Assembly (NCBI RefSeq): GCF_023734095.1
Contig: NZ_AP024620.1
Coordinates: 1,360,501-1,424,500 of the forward strand
DNA from: Moorella sp. Hama-1
GTDB taxonomy: Bacteria; Bacillota; DSM-521; Neomoorellales; Neomoorellaceae
Reading direction: 5' to 3'
Length of the DNA stretch: 64,000 bases
Shown: piece by piece, positions 16,580 through 38,344 of the stretch
Numbering within the stretch: the first letter of the stretch is position 1
Layout of the letters: each line of letters begins with the position of its first letter
Made by a program: the position numbers and the translations under genes
Notes under the pieces: model-generated
The model's input: only the letters and a program-made list of their open reading frames with translations
Databases searched by the model: none
What the model was told of the DNA's origin: nothing

Positions 16580-16680
16580 GCTTCAAGGTGCAGCCAGGCT
16601 GTCGTAGTGCCATTACATGAGCACCTTAGAACCTATGGCTTTGCGTCCTCATCTTTCGGTGAGTTTGCCCTAAGTGCTTA
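16580..16680 (-). ncRNA. Cyclic di-GMP-I (GEMM) riboswitch without an obvious target gene
   Basis: The minus strand carries the conserved GEMM-I core. GGGCAAAC is followed by a short stem capped by a GAAA tetraloop, then GACGCAAAGCC, then a G/C-rich third helix with an AGCCTGGCT hairpin. GEMM-I RNAs bind c-di-GMP. A possible terminator follows (CCTG-7 nt-CAGG plus six T, 16,545-16,559). It begins 62 bases after the stop of the epimerase gene and points towards the convergent tRNA region. No minus-strand gene lies downstream for over 1.7 kb, so the regulated gene may have been lost. Confidence 0.8.
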
Positions 16681-29275: not shown

Positions 29276-29324
29276 TGCTCGCCATCATCTGGCCAACCAC
29301 CCCCTATCCGGCGTAGGGGTAAGG

Positions 29325-29473
29325 GTTCCCAGGCAACCGGTATCCTGACTCGGGATCACAGCTCCGGCACCGCCTTCCCGGGCTAATACCCAGTGGCTCG
29401 ATGGTGCCTTACTCCCCCTCACAGTGGCGGGACCGTGTCAGATTTGCACTGACTTCCCGTATTTGCCTGGAAC
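29325..29473 (-). ncRNA. Cobalamin riboswitch controlling cobK-cbiMNQO
   Basis: The minus strand shows the closing helix CCAGGCAA/TTGCCTGG, GGGAAGTCAGTGCAAATCTGACAC, the B12-box-like GCCACTGTGAGG segment, and GAGCCACTGGG. These are the conserved parts of cobalamin aptamers. It lies 355 bases before the operon start and is followed by an intrinsic terminator, so cobalamin should lower expression. Confidence 0.93.
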
Positions 29474-29653
29474 ATATTTATGTTAAAGCTATTTTATCAT
29501 AACCTGGATAGGATGTCCAGGGGTGTTAAGCCAATAATTTCTTTAGTTTTTTTACCGTAAGCCCGGCTTATTTTAAAATTGATTTCAAGGTCCCGGGAGC
29601 GAGTTCATCATGCAATGGTATGTTTTGTTTTATTATATCATTTTTAGCTGGCG

Positions 29654-30979
29654 TTATGCCAGCCCGGCCCGACGGGCGATGCGCTGGACGGCTTCGTTGG
29701 CCTTCCGCCGGACTTCAGCGGCGTCAATGGTCTTCAATTCGCCCTTTTCCATGACGATTTGGCCGTCGACCATGGTCAGGGTGACATCCGTACCTTTAGC
29801 TTGGTAGACCAGCTGGGCGTAGACGTTGACGCCGTCTGCCGGCTGGGTGTGCAGGCCATCCAGGGAAACCAGGGCCAGGTCGGCCTTCTTCCCTACCTCC
29901 AGGCTGCCGATCTCCTGCTCCATCCCCAGGGCTCGGGCGCCGCCCAGGGTAGCCAGTTCAAAAACTAGAGGCGCCGGCATAGTAGTGGGGCCGTGGAGGG
30001 GTTTCTGGATCAGGGCCGCCAGGCGCATCTCCATAAAGGCGTCCAGGTTGTTGTTGCAGGGAGCACCATCGGCAGCCAGGGAAACCACGGTTCCTCGGTC
30101 CAGGAGTTCCGGCACGGGGCAGATCCCGGAAGCTATCTTTAAGTTAGAGGAAGGGCAGTGGACCACCCTGGTACCGGTGCGGGCCAGGATCTCCTTCTCT
30201 TCTTCATTAAGCCAGATGCAGTGGACCAGGATGAGGTCCGGCCCGGTGAGGCCAATGTCATCCAGGTAAAGGACGTTACGCCGGCCGTGGAGTTTCTCCA
30301 CCAGGTCGCACTCCCCCCGGTTTTCCGAGGCGTGGGTATGGATCTTGACGCCGTACCGGCGAGCGAGGTCCCGAACCGCCAGCAGCAACTCTTCCGTGCA
30401 GGAGACCACGAAACGGGGTTCAAAGGCGTACTGGATGCGGCCGTGGTCATAGCCGTGCCATTTCTCCAGCAGGTTTATACTCTCTTCCAGGGAGGCCTCC
30501 GTAGTTTCCTTGAGGGTCGCCGGGACGTCGTCGCCATAGTCCATCATCACCTTGCCGGTCATAGCGCGCATGCCGCTTTGGGCGATGGCCTCGATGGCCG
30601 CACCGGTATGGTGGACGCTCTCCATGTCGACGATGGTGGTGGTGCCGCTCCGGAAGAGCTCGCCGATGCCCAGGAGGGCGGAATAGTAAATTGATTCGGC
30701 GTCGTGGGCGCCCTCCAGGGGCCAGATACGCAGGCGCAGCCAGTCCAGGAGTTCCAGGTCGTCGGCGCGGCCGCGGAAAAGGGTCTGGCAGAGGTGGATA
30801 TGGGGCTGGATGAGGCCGGGGATCACCAGTTGGCCGCCGGCGTCGATGACCCGGTCGGCGGTGGCCGGCGCCTGGCCGAGGGCGGCGATGCGGTCGTTTT
30901 CGATGTAGATATCACCCTGGAGTACCTCCCGCCGGGAATTCATGGTCACCAGGGTGCCGTTTTTAATGAGGATGCTCAT
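29654..30979 (-). CDS. Amidohydrolase, SsnA/guanine-deaminase-like (COG0402)
   Basis: 441 residues. The metal-dependent deaminase pattern is complete: PHIHLCQTLFRG (HxH near residue 60), HTHASENRGE, LVHCIWL and SLAADGAPCNNNLD (the Asp ligand). Relatives deaminate guanine, 8-oxoguanine, S-adenosylhomocysteine or thiomethyl-adenosine. The gene overlaps the xanthine-dehydrogenase-type gene upstream by 4 bases and is under the purine riboswitch, so a purine deaminase (guanine or 8-oxoguanine to xanthine or urate) is the best inference. The exact substrate is not settled by sequence. Confidence 0.82.
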   Translation of the reverse strand: MSILIKNGTLVTMNSRREVLQGDIYIENDRIAALGQAPATADRVIDAGGQLVIPGLIQPHIHLCQTLFRGRADDLELLDWLRLRIWPLEGAHDAESIYYSALLGIGELFRSGTTTIVDMESVHHTGAAIEAIAQSGMRAMTGKVMMDYGDDVPATLKETTEASLEESINLLEKWHGYDHGRIQYAFEPRFVVSCTEELLLAVRDLARRYGVKIHTHASENRGECDLVEKLHGRRNVLYLDDIGLTGPDLILVHCIWLNEEEKEILARTGTRVVHCPSSNLKIASGICPVPELLDRGTVVSLAADGAPCNNNLDAFMEMRLAALIQKPLHGPTTMPAPLVFELATLGGARALGMEQEIGSLEVGKKADLALVSLDGLHTQPADGVNVYAQLVYQAKGTDVTLTMVDGQIVMEKGELKTIDAAEVRRKANEAVQRIARRAGLA

Positions 30980-31968
30980 GCTTTCTTCTCCTTTAGCCCG
31001 TCCAGGATTTTTTCCGGCGTGACTGGCAGCTCGGTAATGCGGACGCCCACGGCGTTATAGATGGCATTGATGACGGCCGGCACGGTAGGGATGGTGGCCG
31101 GTTCGCCTACTCCCTTGGCGCCGAAGGGACCGGTGGGCTCATGGGATTCGACAATCAGGGGTTCTACCTCGGGCATATCCATAGTGGTGGGGATCAGGTA
31201 GGTGGAAAAGGAGTTATTGACAATCCGCCCCTCTTGCAGGTGCACCTTTTCCAGCAGGGCCATACCGACGCCCTGGCCGATGCCGCCGGCGATCTGCCCT
31301 TCCACCCCCTGCCGGTTCACCGCCCGGCCGACATCGTGGGCGGCTACCAGTTTCAGGACCTGGACCTGGCCTGTTTCCGTATCTACTTCTACTTCGGCGA
31401 TCTGGGTGCCGAAGGCATAGGGCCAGTACGGCGCCCCCTGACCGGTCTCCCGGTCGACGGCCGTGGTGTGGGTGACGAAGCTCCCCTGACCAACCAGGCG
31501 GTAGCCGGCCAGGCGGGCCCGGGTGGCAGCCTCGGGATAGGGGATCTGCTTTGCCGGGTAGCTTTTAACGTAAATAAACCCTTCCCTGGCCACCAGGCCG
31601 GCGACGGTGTTGACCCCCAGCAGGGTACGGGTGTACTCGAAAAGGGTTTCCCGGGCCTGGCGACAGGCCATCTGGACGGCGTTGCCGGAGGCGTAGGTCT
31701 GGCGGGTGGCCGCCGTGGTGCCGGCATCGGGGGTGGTATCGGTGTCGGCACTGATCACCGTTACCCAGGTGTAGGGAACACCGAGTTCTGCGGCGGCAAT
31801 CTGGGCCAGGACGGTATTCGAACCCTGGCCGCAGTCCACCGCCCCGGTGTGAATGGTGGCCGTGCCGTCGTCGTGGATCTCGACGGTGGCCGTGGAAACA
31901 TCAGGGAACCCGTTGCCATAGCCGGTGCCGTAGAAAAAGCAGGCCATGCCGGTGCCGCGTTTCTTCAT
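30976..31968 (-). CDS. Xanthine-dehydrogenase-type molybdenum subunit, C-terminal half
   Basis: 330 residues that correspond to the C-terminal molybdopterin-binding half of XDH-type enzymes: GTGMACFFYGTGYGNG at the start, DCGQGSNTVLAQIAAAELG, AAHDVGRAVNRQGVEGQIAGGIGQG, and GAKGVGEPATIPTVPAVINAI, which holds the catalytic Glu (GVGEP). The ATG at 31,968 lies eight bases after GGAGG, which argues for a genuine separate gene. The N-terminal half is the preceding gene, ended by an in-frame TAG and an 80-bp gap. The two polypeptides would assemble into one active site. Confidence 0.85.
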   Translation of the reverse strand: MKKRGTGMACFFYGTGYGNGFPDVSTATVEIHDDGTATIHTGAVDCGQGSNTVLAQIAAAELGVPYTWVTVISADTDTTPDAGTTAATRQTYASGNAVQMACRQARETLFEYTRTLLGVNTVAGLVAREGFIYVKSYPAKQIPYPEAATRARLAGYRLVGQGSFVTHTTAVDRETGQGAPYWPYAFGTQIAEVEVDTETGQVQVLKLVAAHDVGRAVNRQGVEGQIAGGIGQGVGMALLEKVHLQEGRIVNNSFSTYLIPTTMDMPEVEPLIVESHEPTGPFGAKGVGEPATIPTVPAVINAIYNAVGVRITELPVTPEKILDGLKEKKA

Positions 31969-32048
31969 ACTGCATACCTCCAAACCCAACAGGCATAAGT
32001 TTGACTAAGTGCCGTGCCTGGCAGGGAGTATTGGGTATAATGCACCTT

Positions 32049-33341
32049 CTACCCATCTGCCTTCTGCCCGGGGATTAAGTCTGCCGGTGACCAGCCGGCG
32101 GCCCGGGCCGCCTGGAGCATGGTTTCCGTCAGCCCGACGCTGCTCTCCAGGACCTGGCCGGTGGCGGTAACATCCCCCTGGCGGAAGGCGTTGAGCCAGC
32201 GGATGGTAAAGGGGTGCAGGCCGAGCCTGGCCGCCAGTTCGTCCATCTGGCTTTCATAGGCCAGGGGCGGCTGGGTGGCGCCGAAGCCACGCATGGCCCC
32301 GGTGAAGGGGTTGTTGGTGTAGACGGCGTAGGCATCGATTTTTACATGGGGAACGACATAGGGCCCCGTGGCGTGGATGGCTGCCTTGCGCAAAACGTTG
32401 GGGGCCCAGGAAGAATAGGCGCCGCTGTCGCCGATAATCTCCGCCTCCAGGGCCGTCAGTTTACCTGCCCTGGTGGCCCCGGTTTTATAGCGCATAATCA
32501 TAGGATGGCGTTTGCTGTGGGCCTGGAAAGACTCTTCCCGGTTGAGGACCATTTTGGCCGGTCGCCGAGTATGCACCGCCAGGAGGGCCACCAGGGTCTG
32601 CAGGGTCATATCCTCCCGGCCGCCGAAGGCACCGCCTACCATGGGGGCGACGATGCGGATGCGGTCCTGGTTCCATCCCAGCACCCGGGCTACCTCCGTC
32701 CGGTCCCAGTGGACGTACTGGGTGGCCACATAAATTACCAGGTGATCGCGCTCGTCCAGCCGGGCCACGGCGGCCTCCGGCTGGAGGAAGGCGTGGTCCA
32801 GGAGCTGGGTGCGGTAGGTGTTTTCAACGATCACGTCGGCAGTAGCGAAGCCGGCCTGGATATCCCCTTTGCGAATGGGCAGGTGGTAGATTATATTCTC
32901 CCGATCAGGATGGACCCGGGGAGCACCCGGTTGCATGGCGGCCACAGGGTCCAGGAGGGCCGGTAGTTCCTCATAGTCTACTTTTACCCTGGCGGCTCCT
33001 TCTTTGGCCGCCGCGGGGGTAGTGGCCCCGACCAGGGCGACGACGTCATTTACCGAGCGTACCTCCTCCCCCGCCAGGACGGGCATATCCTGGAAGAGGA
33101 CCCCCTGGCCGTTGTGGCCGGGGATGTCCCTGGCCGTCAGGACACAGATGACCCCTGGCACCTGCAAGGCAGCTGCGGTATCAAGATGGACAATCCGGGC
33201 GTGGGCATGGGGGCTGCGGACAGTATGACCGTAGATCATCCCCGGGAAGGTGATATCAGCCGGGTAAACGGCCTGGCCGGTCACCTTGGCCCGGGCATCC
33301 CCCCGGGCGGGGGAAGCGCCGATAATGGCCACAGGCATCAT
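32049..33341 (-). CDS. Xanthine-dehydrogenase-type molybdenum subunit, N-terminal half
   Basis: 430 residues. The N-terminal a/b-hammerhead domain (residues 10-110: ARGDARAKVTGQAVYPADI, RSPHAHARIVHLD) is followed by the first Mo-cofactor-binding region with LLDHAFLQPEAAVA, MVGGAFGGRED and AMRGFGATQPPLAYESQMDELA. It stops after AARAAGWSPADLIPG, the usual linker before the second Mo domain. ATG at 33,341 and 33,338 or GTG at 33,332 are possible starts; AAAGGA favours the last. No FAD or [2Fe-2S] subunit gene adjoins, so electron-transfer partners must come from elsewhere. Confidence 0.85.
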   Translation of the reverse strand: MMPVAIIGASPARGDARAKVTGQAVYPADITFPGMIYGHTVRSPHAHARIVHLDTAAALQVPGVICVLTARDIPGHNGQGVLFQDMPVLAGEEVRSVNDVVALVGATTPAAAKEGAARVKVDYEELPALLDPVAAMQPGAPRVHPDRENIIYHLPIRKGDIQAGFATADVIVENTYRTQLLDHAFLQPEAAVARLDERDHLVIYVATQYVHWDRTEVARVLGWNQDRIRIVAPMVGGAFGGREDMTLQTLVALLAVHTRRPAKMVLNREESFQAHSKRHPMIMRYKTGATRAGKLTALEAEIIGDSGAYSSWAPNVLRKAAIHATGPYVVPHVKIDAYAVYTNNPFTGAMRGFGATQPPLAYESQMDELAARLGLHPFTIRWLNAFRQGDVTATGQVLESSVGLTETMLQAARAAGWSPADLIPGQKADG

Positions 33342-33415: not shown

Positions 33416-33485
33416 AAAAAACCAGGCAACCGTGGTCCGACAACGAAGGTAGACCTTCGTAGCCGGGCAATTTGCGGTTGCCTGG
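33416..33485 (-). terminator. Terminator overlapping the purine riboswitch aptamer
   Basis: On the minus strand CCAGGCAACCG (33,475-33,485) pairs perfectly with CGGTTGCCTGG (33,422-33,432), followed by six T. An inner stem pairs the aptamer's 3' P1 strand, CTACGAAGG, with CCTTCGTTG. Both terminator strands on the 5' side are parts of the aptamer, so ligand binding should prevent terminator formation. Confidence 0.8.
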
Positions 33486-33525
33486 TAGAAACCCCCGGTC
33501 CCTATTGCCGGGGATATACGAAGCA
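33453..33525 (-). ncRNA. Purine (guanine-class) riboswitch with a variant core
   Basis: The aptamer shows P1 TTCGTA/TACGAA, P2 CCCCGG/CCGGGG, the invariant J2/3 TTTCTACC, P3 GGCAA/TTGCC and L3 CCGCAAA, which can form the two loop-loop G-C pairs with GG of L2. The specificity position (74 in xpt numbering) is C, which selects guanine-like ligands. The preceding base is G where the consensus has A73, a core change. It lies about 110 bases before the xanthine-dehydrogenase-type genes. Confidence 0.85.
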
Positions 33526-33751: not shown

Positions 33752-35440
33752 TCATACATTAAATATACCGGCCAGTTCCTCCTCTGTTATATCCCAGGTC
33801 AGGTTATAGGGGAAGAGCTTTTCTTTCCTCATAAACTCTGGTAAACCTTCATCTTCACCCTTCATCCCGGCCTGGCGGTTGAACTCCAGCTCCGTCTGCA
33901 GGACCTCCAGCCCGAGTTCATTCAAGTAGCCGGCGGGAAGCCGGGTGTTATAAATGGCGTTTAACATATCAACCACCTTCTGCGGGTGGGCGGCTGTAGC
34001 CGACATAAGGAAGGCGCAAAGCCCCAGGGCGTCGTAGGCGGCCCGGCCGATCTGCATCTGTCGGGAGAGTTCCTTTTGCCCGGCGGCCTGGTGGTGGTCC
34101 ACCGGGGCAAATACTGTCAGGCCGGCGGTATGATCGGCGCCCATGGGCGAGGTAATATAGGTTATGCCGGTCCCTTTAACACCCCGGGGATCATAACCGG
34201 AGATGGCCTGGTTTTTCACCGTGGGCACCCGCTTGACCCCCAGGACCCGGCCGCAGTAACCGGCACCCATGCCCAGGAGGCGGCCGGTCAGGGTGTTCCG
34301 GGGGATTTCTTCTAGTAAGGTAGTAAAGCTGGCGGCGTCACCGAAGGTAGCCCGGCCGGCTTCGGCCATCACTGCCAGGGCGGCACCGATCTCAATGGTA
34401 TCCAGGCCCCAGTCGTTACACCAGTAGTTCCACCGGGCAATGGCGTCCAGGTCGGCTACCCCAAGGTTGGAACCCATCAGGCAGAGGGTTTCATACTCCA
34501 GGGGAGCCACGATTTCCTTGCCGTCGCGGTCGGGAATCACAGTTGAGCAGCGGATAACGCAGCTGTCCATACAACGCTCGCTGTGTTTACCCTCACCGCC
34601 CCGTTCCTCTATCAACCGGTAAACGGCATCGCCGCCGATGGCTTCCGCCCCGGCAAAGGTTCCCTGGCGGAAATTCAGGGTCGGCAGGGCCCCCAGGGCG
34701 TTGGTCAGGCCCATGGTCTCGGGCGTACCGTATTCAGTCAGGGTCTTAACACGGTCGCTGCCGGCTACCAGTTTATTAAAAGCCAGCCGGGCCGCTGTAA
34801 AGGCTTCTTTACTGGCCGGTTCCGGTACCGGCCCGACCTTCCGGGGGATCAGGATTGCTTTAATATGTTTGCTGCCCATAACGGCCCCAACACCGCCACG
34901 GGCTGCCAGCCGGCTGGGCCGGCCATAAACGTCGGTAACGGCGACGCCGGCGGCATAGAGCTGCTGTTCGCCGGCCTGGCCGATGGTTACCAGGGCGTAA
35001 TCCCGGCCAAAATCGGCGTAAAGGCGCCGGGCGAGTTCGAAATTACCCACCCCCAGGTAAGACGTAGCTGGGAGGAATTTAAAACCTCCGTTGTCTATCA
35101 CCAGGATCTGCCACTCTGGAGCCTGGCCTTCCAGGACCACCGCCCGCAGGCCGGCCCTGGCCAGGGCGTCGCCCGCCGTGCCCCCGGCGTTGGCTTCTTT
35201 AATGCCGCCTGTTAAGGGGCTCTTGCAGCCGACGGATAAGCGGCCGGCGCTGGAGATCCCCCTGCCGGCCAGGGGGCCGCAAGCCAGGATTAGCTTGTTC
35301 TCCGCGCCCAGGGGATTACAGCGGGGCGGCACCTCGGTTTTAATCAGCCGGGAGGTTAAATAACGCCCGCCCGCCAGGGGATTTTCCAGTTCCTCAAATT
35401 GCCCTTCGCCCCTGTTTAAATCGATGCGTAACAGTTTCAA
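33752..35440 (-). CDS. Tungsten-containing aldehyde:ferredoxin oxidoreductase family protein (short form)
   Basis: 562 residues, about 50 shorter than typical AOR. The N-terminal AOR domain binds the tungstobispterin cofactor (KSPLTGGIKEANAGGTAGDALARAGLRAVVLEG; RGGVGAVMGSKHIKAI). The [4Fe-4S] ligands are CMDSCVIRC near residue 290 and a single Cys in ALGLCAF near residue 480. These enzymes oxidise aldehydes or reduce acids with ferredoxin; the substrate of this branch is unknown. TTG start. It lies 8 bp after the RpiR-type regulator gene and would share its transcript. Confidence 0.88.
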   Translation of the reverse strand: MKLLRIDLNRGEGQFEELENPLAGGRYLTSRLIKTEVPPRCNPLGAENKLILACGPLAGRGISSAGRLSVGCKSPLTGGIKEANAGGTAGDALARAGLRAVVLEGQAPEWQILVIDNGGFKFLPATSYLGVGNFELARRLYADFGRDYALVTIGQAGEQQLYAAGVAVTDVYGRPSRLAARGGVGAVMGSKHIKAILIPRKVGPVPEPASKEAFTAARLAFNKLVAGSDRVKTLTEYGTPETMGLTNALGALPTLNFRQGTFAGAEAIGGDAVYRLIEERGGEGKHSERCMDSCVIRCSTVIPDRDGKEIVAPLEYETLCLMGSNLGVADLDAIARWNYWCNDWGLDTIEIGAALAVMAEAGRATFGDAASFTTLLEEIPRNTLTGRLLGMGAGYCGRVLGVKRVPTVKNQAISGYDPRGVKGTGITYITSPMGADHTAGLTVFAPVDHHQAAGQKELSRQMQIGRAAYDALGLCAFLMSATAAHPQKVVDMLNAIYNTRLPAGYLNELGLEVLQTELEFNRQAGMKGEDEGLPEFMRKEKLFPYNLTWDITEEELAGIFNV

Positions 35441-36409: not shown

Positions 36410-38302
36410 CTACTTTGAAGGTAGATCTTTAACTAGTTCTTGCAGACCCAGTTCCTTTAGCCTGGCGGCAGTAGGGATGCCGTCTTGGGTCCAGCCGCCC
36501 AGGGCATAGTATTCATCCAGCATGGCGTCCAGGTCAATAGTTAGGCCCTGGCGGGAGAGTTGGGCCTTGTCCGGGGGGACCTTTTCGATCTCCTCCGGGT
36601 TGGCGTAGACGTCCAGGGGTTCTTGCAAAGAACGCGGCGGCAGGTAATCGTCTTTGCGGCTGAAACCGTGGCGGACGTTATACATCCTTTCCAGGTTGAC
36701 AATGCGCTGCCCGATACGCATGATCTCTTCGTCGCTGATTGCTAGACCCAGAGCCCGGAGGCCGGCGGCCAGGTCGGCCGGCAGGATGGCATAGGTTTCC
36801 GTGAAGGCGAACTTGCAAATGCCGGCGGCGTCGGCCAGGGCGTTGCAGGTTTCGGTAAAGCGGACCATGTGGGGCTTAAATTTCTCCGCAGTGACTTCCA
36901 TGAGTTCCGGCCCGCACTCCGGCAATACTTTAGCGGCTACGTCGGTCATCCCGGCCACGTCAATGGTCGGCAGGGCGTAGAGATGGTCGGCGCCACGGTT
37001 GCTGGTGGCATGGCCCAGGCCGAAGGCCTTCAGCACCCGGCCTTCCTGGCGCGGCAATTCCACTCCTTTGACCTGCATGGCGAAGAATTCGCTGCCGTGG
37101 CCCAGGCGGGCGCTGGCTACCTTGACGCCGTCGGCCAGCAGGTCACCTGTGCCCCGGCGGGAGGCGATGTCTTTGATCAGGCCGATAATGGTCTCCGGGT
37201 CGCCCCACTCCATACTGTAGTCTGGGTCGTCCAGCAGGCCCCTTTCGTGGGCTTCCATGGCAAAGGCGATGACCAGGCCGGTGGAGATGGTGTCCAGGCC
37301 CAGTTCGTTACAGAGCTTGTTGGCGTAAATGACCAGCTCCATATTACCGTTCCAGAGGTTGGAACCCAGGGCGTTGGTGGTTTCATACTCCGGCCCTTCG
37401 TTAAGGGGGGTCTTAAAGGGGCCGTCCGGTACTTCGGTAATCCGGGCGCAGCGGATGGAGCAGGCGTAGCAGCCCTGGGTTTTCACCGTATAACGGGCCA
37501 CGGCCGCCGCGTTAATCTCTTTACCTAGGGGGAACTGGCCCCAGCGATGGTTTTTACTGGGCATGTCGCCGCTCATATTCTTAGAATCAATCAGGCAGAC
37601 GGTACCCCACTTGCTGTACATCTGGCTCTCCGGGTGGTTGCGGACGGCCGCCGTTACCCGGCGGACTACTTCCTTAAACTTCGGCGGGGTTTCTACCCGG
37701 TGGCTGCCTTTGACCACCAGGGCCTTGAGGTTTTTCGAACCCATAACGGCGCCCATGCCGGTGCGGGCCGCGGCCCGGGCGTAGTCGTTGATAATGCCGG
37801 CAATGCGTACCAGGTTTTCGCCCGCCGGGCCGATGGCGGCCACCCGGCTGCCGGGATAACGTTCCCTCAGGGTCTTTTCCGTTACTTCTGTGGTCTGGCC
37901 CCAGAGGTCGCCAGCGGGGAGTAGTTCCAGGTTGTCGTCCTCAATATGCAGGATTACCGGGCGGGCGGCGCGGCCGCGAAAGACGATGAGATCATAGCCG
38001 GCTTTACGCAGCTCGGGGCCGAAGAAGCCGGAGCTGTTGGCGTAACCGTAGGCGCCGGTGGCCGGCGACTTGGCTGTTACCGTATAACGGGCCGCCGAGG
38101 GCCAGGAGGTGCCCGTCAGGGGGCCGGTGGAAAAGATGAGCAGGTTTTCCGGGTCCAGGGGCTGGACTTCCGGGCCGACGTGGTCGTAGAGGACTTTGGC
38201 CGCCAGGCCGCGGCTGCCCAGGAATTTCAGTAAATCCTCCTGCGGCGTCGGTTGAAGCTCGATTTTGCCGGTTGTTAGATCTATCCAGGCTGTTTTAGCC
38301 AT
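36410..38302 (-). CDS. aor: Tungsten-containing aldehyde:ferredoxin oxidoreductase (AOR)
   Basis: 630 residues, full AOR length. Cofactor-binding segment TGAYGYANSSGFFGPELRKAGYDLIVFRG; RTGMGAVMGSKNLKALVVKG; [4Fe-4S] ligands CYACSIRC near residue 280 and Cys in AAGICKFAF near residue 490. Domain 2/3 motifs for the bispterin follow (GLGHATSNRGADH). It probably interconverts acids and aldehydes with ferredoxin. I use the ATG at 38,302, six bases after GAGGTG. A MoaD-like gene lies 42 bp upstream, and the RpiR regulator and a second AOR follow. Confidence 0.92.
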   Translation of the reverse strand: MAKTAWIDLTTGKIELQPTPQEDLLKFLGSRGLAAKVLYDHVGPEVQPLDPENLLIFSTGPLTGTSWPSAARYTVTAKSPATGAYGYANSSGFFGPELRKAGYDLIVFRGRAARPVILHIEDDNLELLPAGDLWGQTTEVTEKTLRERYPGSRVAAIGPAGENLVRIAGIINDYARAAARTGMGAVMGSKNLKALVVKGSHRVETPPKFKEVVRRVTAAVRNHPESQMYSKWGTVCLIDSKNMSGDMPSKNHRWGQFPLGKEINAAAVARYTVKTQGCYACSIRCARITEVPDGPFKTPLNEGPEYETTNALGSNLWNGNMELVIYANKLCNELGLDTISTGLVIAFAMEAHERGLLDDPDYSMEWGDPETIIGLIKDIASRRGTGDLLADGVKVASARLGHGSEFFAMQVKGVELPRQEGRVLKAFGLGHATSNRGADHLYALPTIDVAGMTDVAAKVLPECGPELMEVTAEKFKPHMVRFTETCNALADAAGICKFAFTETYAILPADLAAGLRALGLAISDEEIMRIGQRIVNLERMYNVRHGFSRKDDYLPPRSLQEPLDVYANPEEIEKVPPDKAQLSRQGLTIDLDAMLDEYYALGGWTQDGIPTAARLKELGLQELVKDLPSK

Positions 38303-38344
38303 GATGGTCACCTCTTTTAATATTTGACGGGATGGTAGTCCCCC

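Follow-up and report, generated by a model that had tools for sequence, protein, structure and literature searches.

Guanine riboswitches are a textbook OFF switch and a drug-target model. The present locus raises the question of what such an element does in front of genes for purine breakdown. In the 64,000-nt stretch of the genome of the thermophile Moorella sp. Hama-1 that was analyzed (the window), an initial annotation had proposed a guanine-class riboswitch that turns on a molybdenum hydroxylase and a deaminase. It had also stated that most guanine riboswitches are OFF switches, which agreed with the open literature, where guanine-I is described as OFF (PMC9295807), including all four cases in C. 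difficile (PMC11477304), and ON control is given for adenine, xanthine-II and guanine-II riboswitches. Our results indicated that purine breakdown is very probably under a transcriptional ON switch, built from a guanine-I aptamer and a strand-exchange terminator of the pbuE kind. The features of the locus are listed in Table 1.

Table 1. Features of the riboswitch locus and its operon, with positions in the window.
Feature	Coordinates	Strand	Evidence
Sigma-H-like promoter motif GCAGGAATTATGGGGCAGGGAAGCGAAT, 35 nt upstream of P1	33559..33586	-	sole pattern match in window, 0.02 expected
Guanine-type purine aptamer (P1, P2, P3 and junctions)	33454..33524	-	RF00167, 76.5 bits
P1	33524-33517/33461-33454	-	
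J1-2, UAU		-	
P2	33513-33507/33499-33493	-	
J2-3, GUUUCUAC	33492-33485	-	
P3	33484-33478/33470-33464	-	
J3-1, GC, followed by the expression platform		-	
Terminator outer stem, 5' arm CCAGGCAACCG (last J2-3 base, P3 5' strand and start of L3)	33475..33485	-	fold; covariation
Inner/nucleator hairpin ACGAAGGU-CU-ACCUUCGU, including the P1 3' strand	33443..33460	-	fold; prefix folding
Terminator outer stem, 3' arm CGGUUGCCUGG, exact complement of the 5' arm	33422..33432	-	sequence; shuffling; covariation
T6 run of the intrinsic terminator	33416..33421	-	sequence
Molybdenum hydroxylase (xanthine dehydrogenase family) large subunit, N-terminal half	32049..33341	-	Ald_Xan_dh_C, MoCoBD_1; 5' partial matches to XDH models
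Molybdenum hydroxylase large subunit, C-terminal half, separate ORF	30976..31989	-	MoCoBD_2
COG0402-type amidohydrolase/deaminase	29654..30979	-	Amidohydro_1; NF005557

To identify the aptamer, an Rfam profile search of the 64-kb window was used. It was observed that RF00167 matched the minus strand at 33541-33440 with 76.5 bits (gathering score 37, E 7e-12). A three-stem RF00167 junction above the gathering score identifies a guanine-I aptamer and, together with a guanine-type pocket, it bore out the class named in the initial annotation, to which the minus strand was added. In the RF00167 alignment, U22, U47, U51 and C74 occupied the guanine-I contact positions, J2-3 was entirely guanine-I consensus, and the junctions carried no insertions. 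Three related classes were considered and rejected: an adenine riboswitch requires U at position 74, where the Hama-1 element has C74; the xanthine-II signature of U51G with J2-3 and J3-1 insertions was absent (GUUUCUAC and GC), as was the guanine-II signature of a 1-nt J2-3 insertion with an altered J3-1 (both signatures according to PMC9295807). Position 73 was G rather than A. Across 173 purine riboswitch loci, J3-1 was AC in 93 and GC in 71, and G73 alternated with A73 among orthologues; A73G was thus ruled out as a mark of a ligand switch. Since the contact positions were those of guanine-I, G73 was no specificity mark and the xanthine-II and guanine-II signatures were absent, the sequence suggested that guanine is most likely the ligand. 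We also considered an ON switch whose pocket has drifted toward hypoxanthine, xanthine, urate or 8-oxoguanine. Such a drift would suit the G73 in J3-1 and the downstream enzymes, which act on oxidised purines; moreover, xanthine and 8-oxoguanine are ligands of variants of this scaffold, and the affinity of guanine-I aptamers for hypoxanthine and xanthine is only about tenfold below that for guanine (PMC9295807). The unbroken guanine-I consensus of the contacts and J2-3, the insertion-free junctions and the frequency of G73 speak against it, and we judged it rather unlikely.

The intrinsic terminator had been predicted to use the 5' strand of P3 and the 3' strand of P1, with a perfect 11-bp outer stem, an inner stem and a T6 run, and every testable detail of this prediction was right. 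CCAGGCAACCG (33485-33475) paired perfectly over 11 bp with CGGTTGCCTGG (33432-33422). The 141-nt RNA folded at -56.7 kcal/mol (z -5.4), and its minimum free energy structure was the terminator form. In a chance test, the aptamer half was kept and the 32 nt between P1 and the T-run were shuffled 2000 times; the shuffles averaged -18.8 kcal/mol (sd 2.5), and none of the 2000 reached the real value of -38.2 kcal/mol or 25 crossing pairs. The best hairpin that lay wholly downstream of P1 and ended at the T-run reached -5.3 kcal/mol, compared with -39.4 kcal/mol for the hairpin overlapping the aptamer. The position of the terminator 5' arm inside the aptamer, this energy difference and the shuffling result demonstrated that the aptamer and the terminator are mutually exclusive. 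No independent downstream-only terminator was found at the locus, where the sole T-run behind a strong hairpin was 33421-33416. The usual guanine-I OFF platform, a terminator downstream of P1 that forms with ligand, was not present; what was found was a pbuE-like ON platform, with a 5' arm taken from aptamer strands and a nucleator hairpin beside P1. Because no downstream-only terminator competes, ligand binding should prevent termination. An ordinary OFF switch, in which the ligand would stabilise P1 and so free a downstream terminator, is the usual mode for guanine riboswitches (PMC9295807, PMC11477304), but it seems extremely improbable at a locus whose only suitable T-run is served by a 5' arm inside the aptamer, and where nothing downstream of P1 makes a strong terminator alone. 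Simple sigma-70 promoter and terminator scans returned nothing at the riboswitch site, which we attribute to a promoter of another type and to a terminator loop too large for the scan.

Prefix folding was then considered for the growing transcript. From the completion of P1 at 33454 until about 33446, the minimum free energy structure was the complete aptamer. From 33442 on, when the nascent RNA offers a partner to the P1 3' strand, the alternative led by 5, 12 and finally 20.5 kcal/mol. Given a lead of about 20 kcal/mol for the finished terminator over the aptamer form, we infer that control must be kinetic. According to the proposed mechanism, the aptamer (33524-33454) would fold first. In the absence of ligand, the P1 3' strand and newly made ACCUUCGU would form the nucleator hairpin, and invasion would proceed through P1 and P3 to give the 11-bp stem and T6, releasing the polymerase ahead of the molybdenum hydroxylase and deaminase genes. 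If guanine, or more weakly hypoxanthine or xanthine, is bound, the locked three-way junction would resist invasion and transcription would continue. Both guanine as the ligand and the direction of switching are likewise inferred.

To place the element in context, we surveyed 173 purine riboswitch loci from the Hama-1 genome, 40 relatives and 149 genomes of the phylum. Three conditions defined an ON-type locus: a terminator hairpin with 10 or more pairs spanning the aptamer boundary, an energy advantage of this hairpin of no less than 14 kcal/mol over every downstream-only hairpin, and a T-run within 75 nt. A first rule (downstream hairpin weaker than -9.5 kcal/mol) had been dropped, as it left out permease and xdh loci whose inner hairpins are stable. 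The rule was chosen after the data had been seen and was revised once, and the tables were significant under both the first rule and its replacement based on crossing pairs and energy difference. Gene categories were clusters of first ORFs annotated through HMM matches of their representatives, and individual loci may therefore carry a wrong label. Within Moorella's family, the ON architecture was found in all 41 catabolic or uptake loci (23/23 XDH/deaminase, 11/11 BMP/ABC and 7/7 permease) and in none of the 12 pur loci. Outside the family, 10 of 13 XDH/deaminase loci, spread over five further families, were ON-type, compared with 2 of 41 loci for biosynthesis or salvage (pur, guaA, guaB, xpt and pbuX; Fisher p 7e-7). 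The transporter loci there were mostly not ON (BMP/ABC 3/17, AzgA 5/34), which indicated that it is mostly in Moorella's family that the transporter switches are inverted, and that ON control of xdh reaches further. Adenine-type riboswitches are expected to be ON from known biology, and all three adenine-type control loci were called ON. In two xdh operons of another family (L068:401-500 and L162), ON-type purine riboswitches carried an unusual J3-1, UC, and J2-3, GUGUCUACG; these aptamers possibly have an altered ligand.

The claim that ligand should block termination gained further support from conservation. The ON architecture was kept in every orthologue tested, although the orthologues compared are not independent. 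We further aligned 20 ON loci from different genes and genera. The 11-bp outer stem had 86% standard pairs and 13 doubly changed cells, a count of related sequences in which the events are not independent, and none of 500 shuffles scored as high. The covariation score was 0.183, compared with 0.01-0.04 when the partner was slid. The main changes were C-G to U-A and A-U to G-C at adjacent P3 positions, as seen when the xdh leader of Moorella is set beside its counterpart in two other genera (L025, L041). These results demonstrated that the distal arm of the terminator covaries with P3. They also bear on whether the element is a relic, that is, a constitutive terminator or attenuator whose aptamer no longer switches. 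The much greater stability of the terminator form would be expected of a relic; however, both the aptamer core and the overlapping terminator have been retained, with compensatory changes, in Moorella and in other genera, and the element was linked to one kind of gene, which made this explanation very unlikely.

Upstream of the aptamer, we found a promoter motif (GCAGGAATTATGGGGCAGGGAAGCGAAT) which we take to resemble the sigma-H consensus, and the Hama-1 genome encodes SigH (378 bits). The pattern GCAGGAWT-N12-15-GCGAAT occurred 29 times in the genome (33559-33586 and 28 others), and the reversed pattern did not occur. In the family, the strict pattern preceded 34 of 41 catabolic or uptake loci, compared with 0 of 13 pur loci (p 7e-8), and TTGACA/TATTAT-like promoters preceded 12 of 12 pur loci and none of the family's other loci. 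The genes behind the other motif copies were mixed, including division genes, nuo, ilvC and regulators; sigma-H is therefore offered only as a hypothesis for the sigma factor that may read this motif. If it is true, the breakdown operons would need both an alternative sigma factor and guanine.

Five RF00167 matches were found in the Hama-1 genome, four ahead of purine uptake or breakdown operons and one ahead of purine biosynthesis. The four were all ON-type, with the terminator 5' arm inside the aptamer, and preceded the molybdenum hydroxylase and deaminase operon of the window, xdhC-xdhA-xdhB-ssnA (L009), a BMP lipoprotein with an ABC importer (L008), and a Xan_ur_permease of AzgA type (L007). 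At the fifth locus (L001/L006), a tandem ahead of pur genes starting purE-purB-purC, the guanine aptamer was followed by a ykkC-type aptamer (RF00442, E 8e-9, below the gathering score). In the guanine-PRPP tandem riboswitch, guanine lowers expression (PMC5912903). A push-pull regulon may be pictured, in which inverted guanine-I platforms would turn on the four Moorella uptake and breakdown operons, as well as xdh operons in five other families, the guanine-ykkC tandem would turn synthesis off, and a sigma-H-like promoter on the breakdown operons only would make an AND gate of the alternative sigma factor and guanine. We consider the chances of this wider picture to be about even.

The downstream genes were those named in the initial annotation, namely a molybdenum hydroxylase in MoCoBD_1 and MoCoBD_2 halves, followed by an Amidohydro_1 deaminase. 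The ORF split (30976-33341) fell between the two Moco-binding domains and appears natural, since a split pair of about 420-430 and 330 aa recurred in other Moorella and other genera. The deaminase (441 aa) scored 721 bits against the NCBIfam model NF005557, '5'-deoxyadenosine deaminase' (cut-off 522), and did not reach the cut-offs for guanine deaminase; its NCBIfam name is thus 5'-deoxyadenosine deaminase rather than guanine deaminase, and its substrate is uncertain. Independently, in a distant genome (L154), an NF005557-family member was the first gene after an ON-type guanine riboswitch, and a purine-base substrate is therefore worth considering as a possibility, a hint that may concern the so-called 5'-deoxyadenosine deaminase family as a whole. 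Two aldehyde ferredoxin oxidoreductase-like genes (33752-35440 and 36410-38311, minus strand) lay immediately upstream of the riboswitch, one on either side of an RpiR-type regulator. Two other riboswitches were observed on the minus strand of the window: a cobalamin riboswitch (29318-29511, 94.5 bits) upstream of a cbiJ-like precorrin-6A reductase and cobalt transport cluster, and a c-di-GMP-I aptamer (16586-16679, 64 bits) adjoining two tRNA genes.

In the open-access literature, we found no earlier report of guanine-I ON switches ahead of xanthine dehydrogenase operons or in Moorella. We rated the combination, the gene set and the regulon as new, and the aptamer and the platform type as known. 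Conserved natural guanine-I ON switches tied to purine catabolism would mean that the sign of control is set by the platform and not by the aptamer, and nature would thereby provide an equivalent of the chimeras that have been engineered from the xpt aptamer and the pbuE platform. One cell would hold a matched pair, with one aptamer class but opposite sign and pathway, for studying the rules of strand exchange. Guanine is predicted to be an inducer of purine catabolism in Moorella, and caution is suggested in that not every RF00167 match should be read as a repressor.

The Hama-1 element was compared with known systems. Xanthine-I (NMT1) likewise controls purine oxidation genes (PMC7373994), but its fold is unrelated, and it is a translational OFF switch. 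The tandem guanine-PRPP riboswitch, an IMPLY gate (PMC5912903), is an arrangement present in the Hama-1 genome before the pur operon; unlike that tandem, the element studied here has a single aptamer and ON wiring. Xanthine-II and guanine-II, from Paenibacillus and others, share the scaffold and are predicted to be ON, and xanthine-II sits before xanthine dehydrogenase and allantoinase genes (PMC9295807); however, they carry U51G and/or insertions in J2-3 and J3-1, none of which occurs in the Hama-1 aptamer. The Bacillus subtilis xpt-pbuX guanine-I riboswitch has the same aptamer class and pocket bases but stops transcription when ligand-bound (PMC10907184), whereas the Hama-1 terminator and aptamer exclude each other. 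In the adenine-responsive, transcriptional ON switch of B. subtilis pbuE, a nucleator or toehold hairpin beside P1 initiates strand invasion of the aptamer, which is prevented when ligand is bound (PMC7707468, PMC10907184). The scaffold and a terminator invading from a nucleator are common to pbuE and the Hama-1 element (PMC7707468); pbuE has U74 and controls a purine efflux pump, whereas the Hama-1 element has C74, catabolic genes and an outer stem reaching the P3 5' strand.
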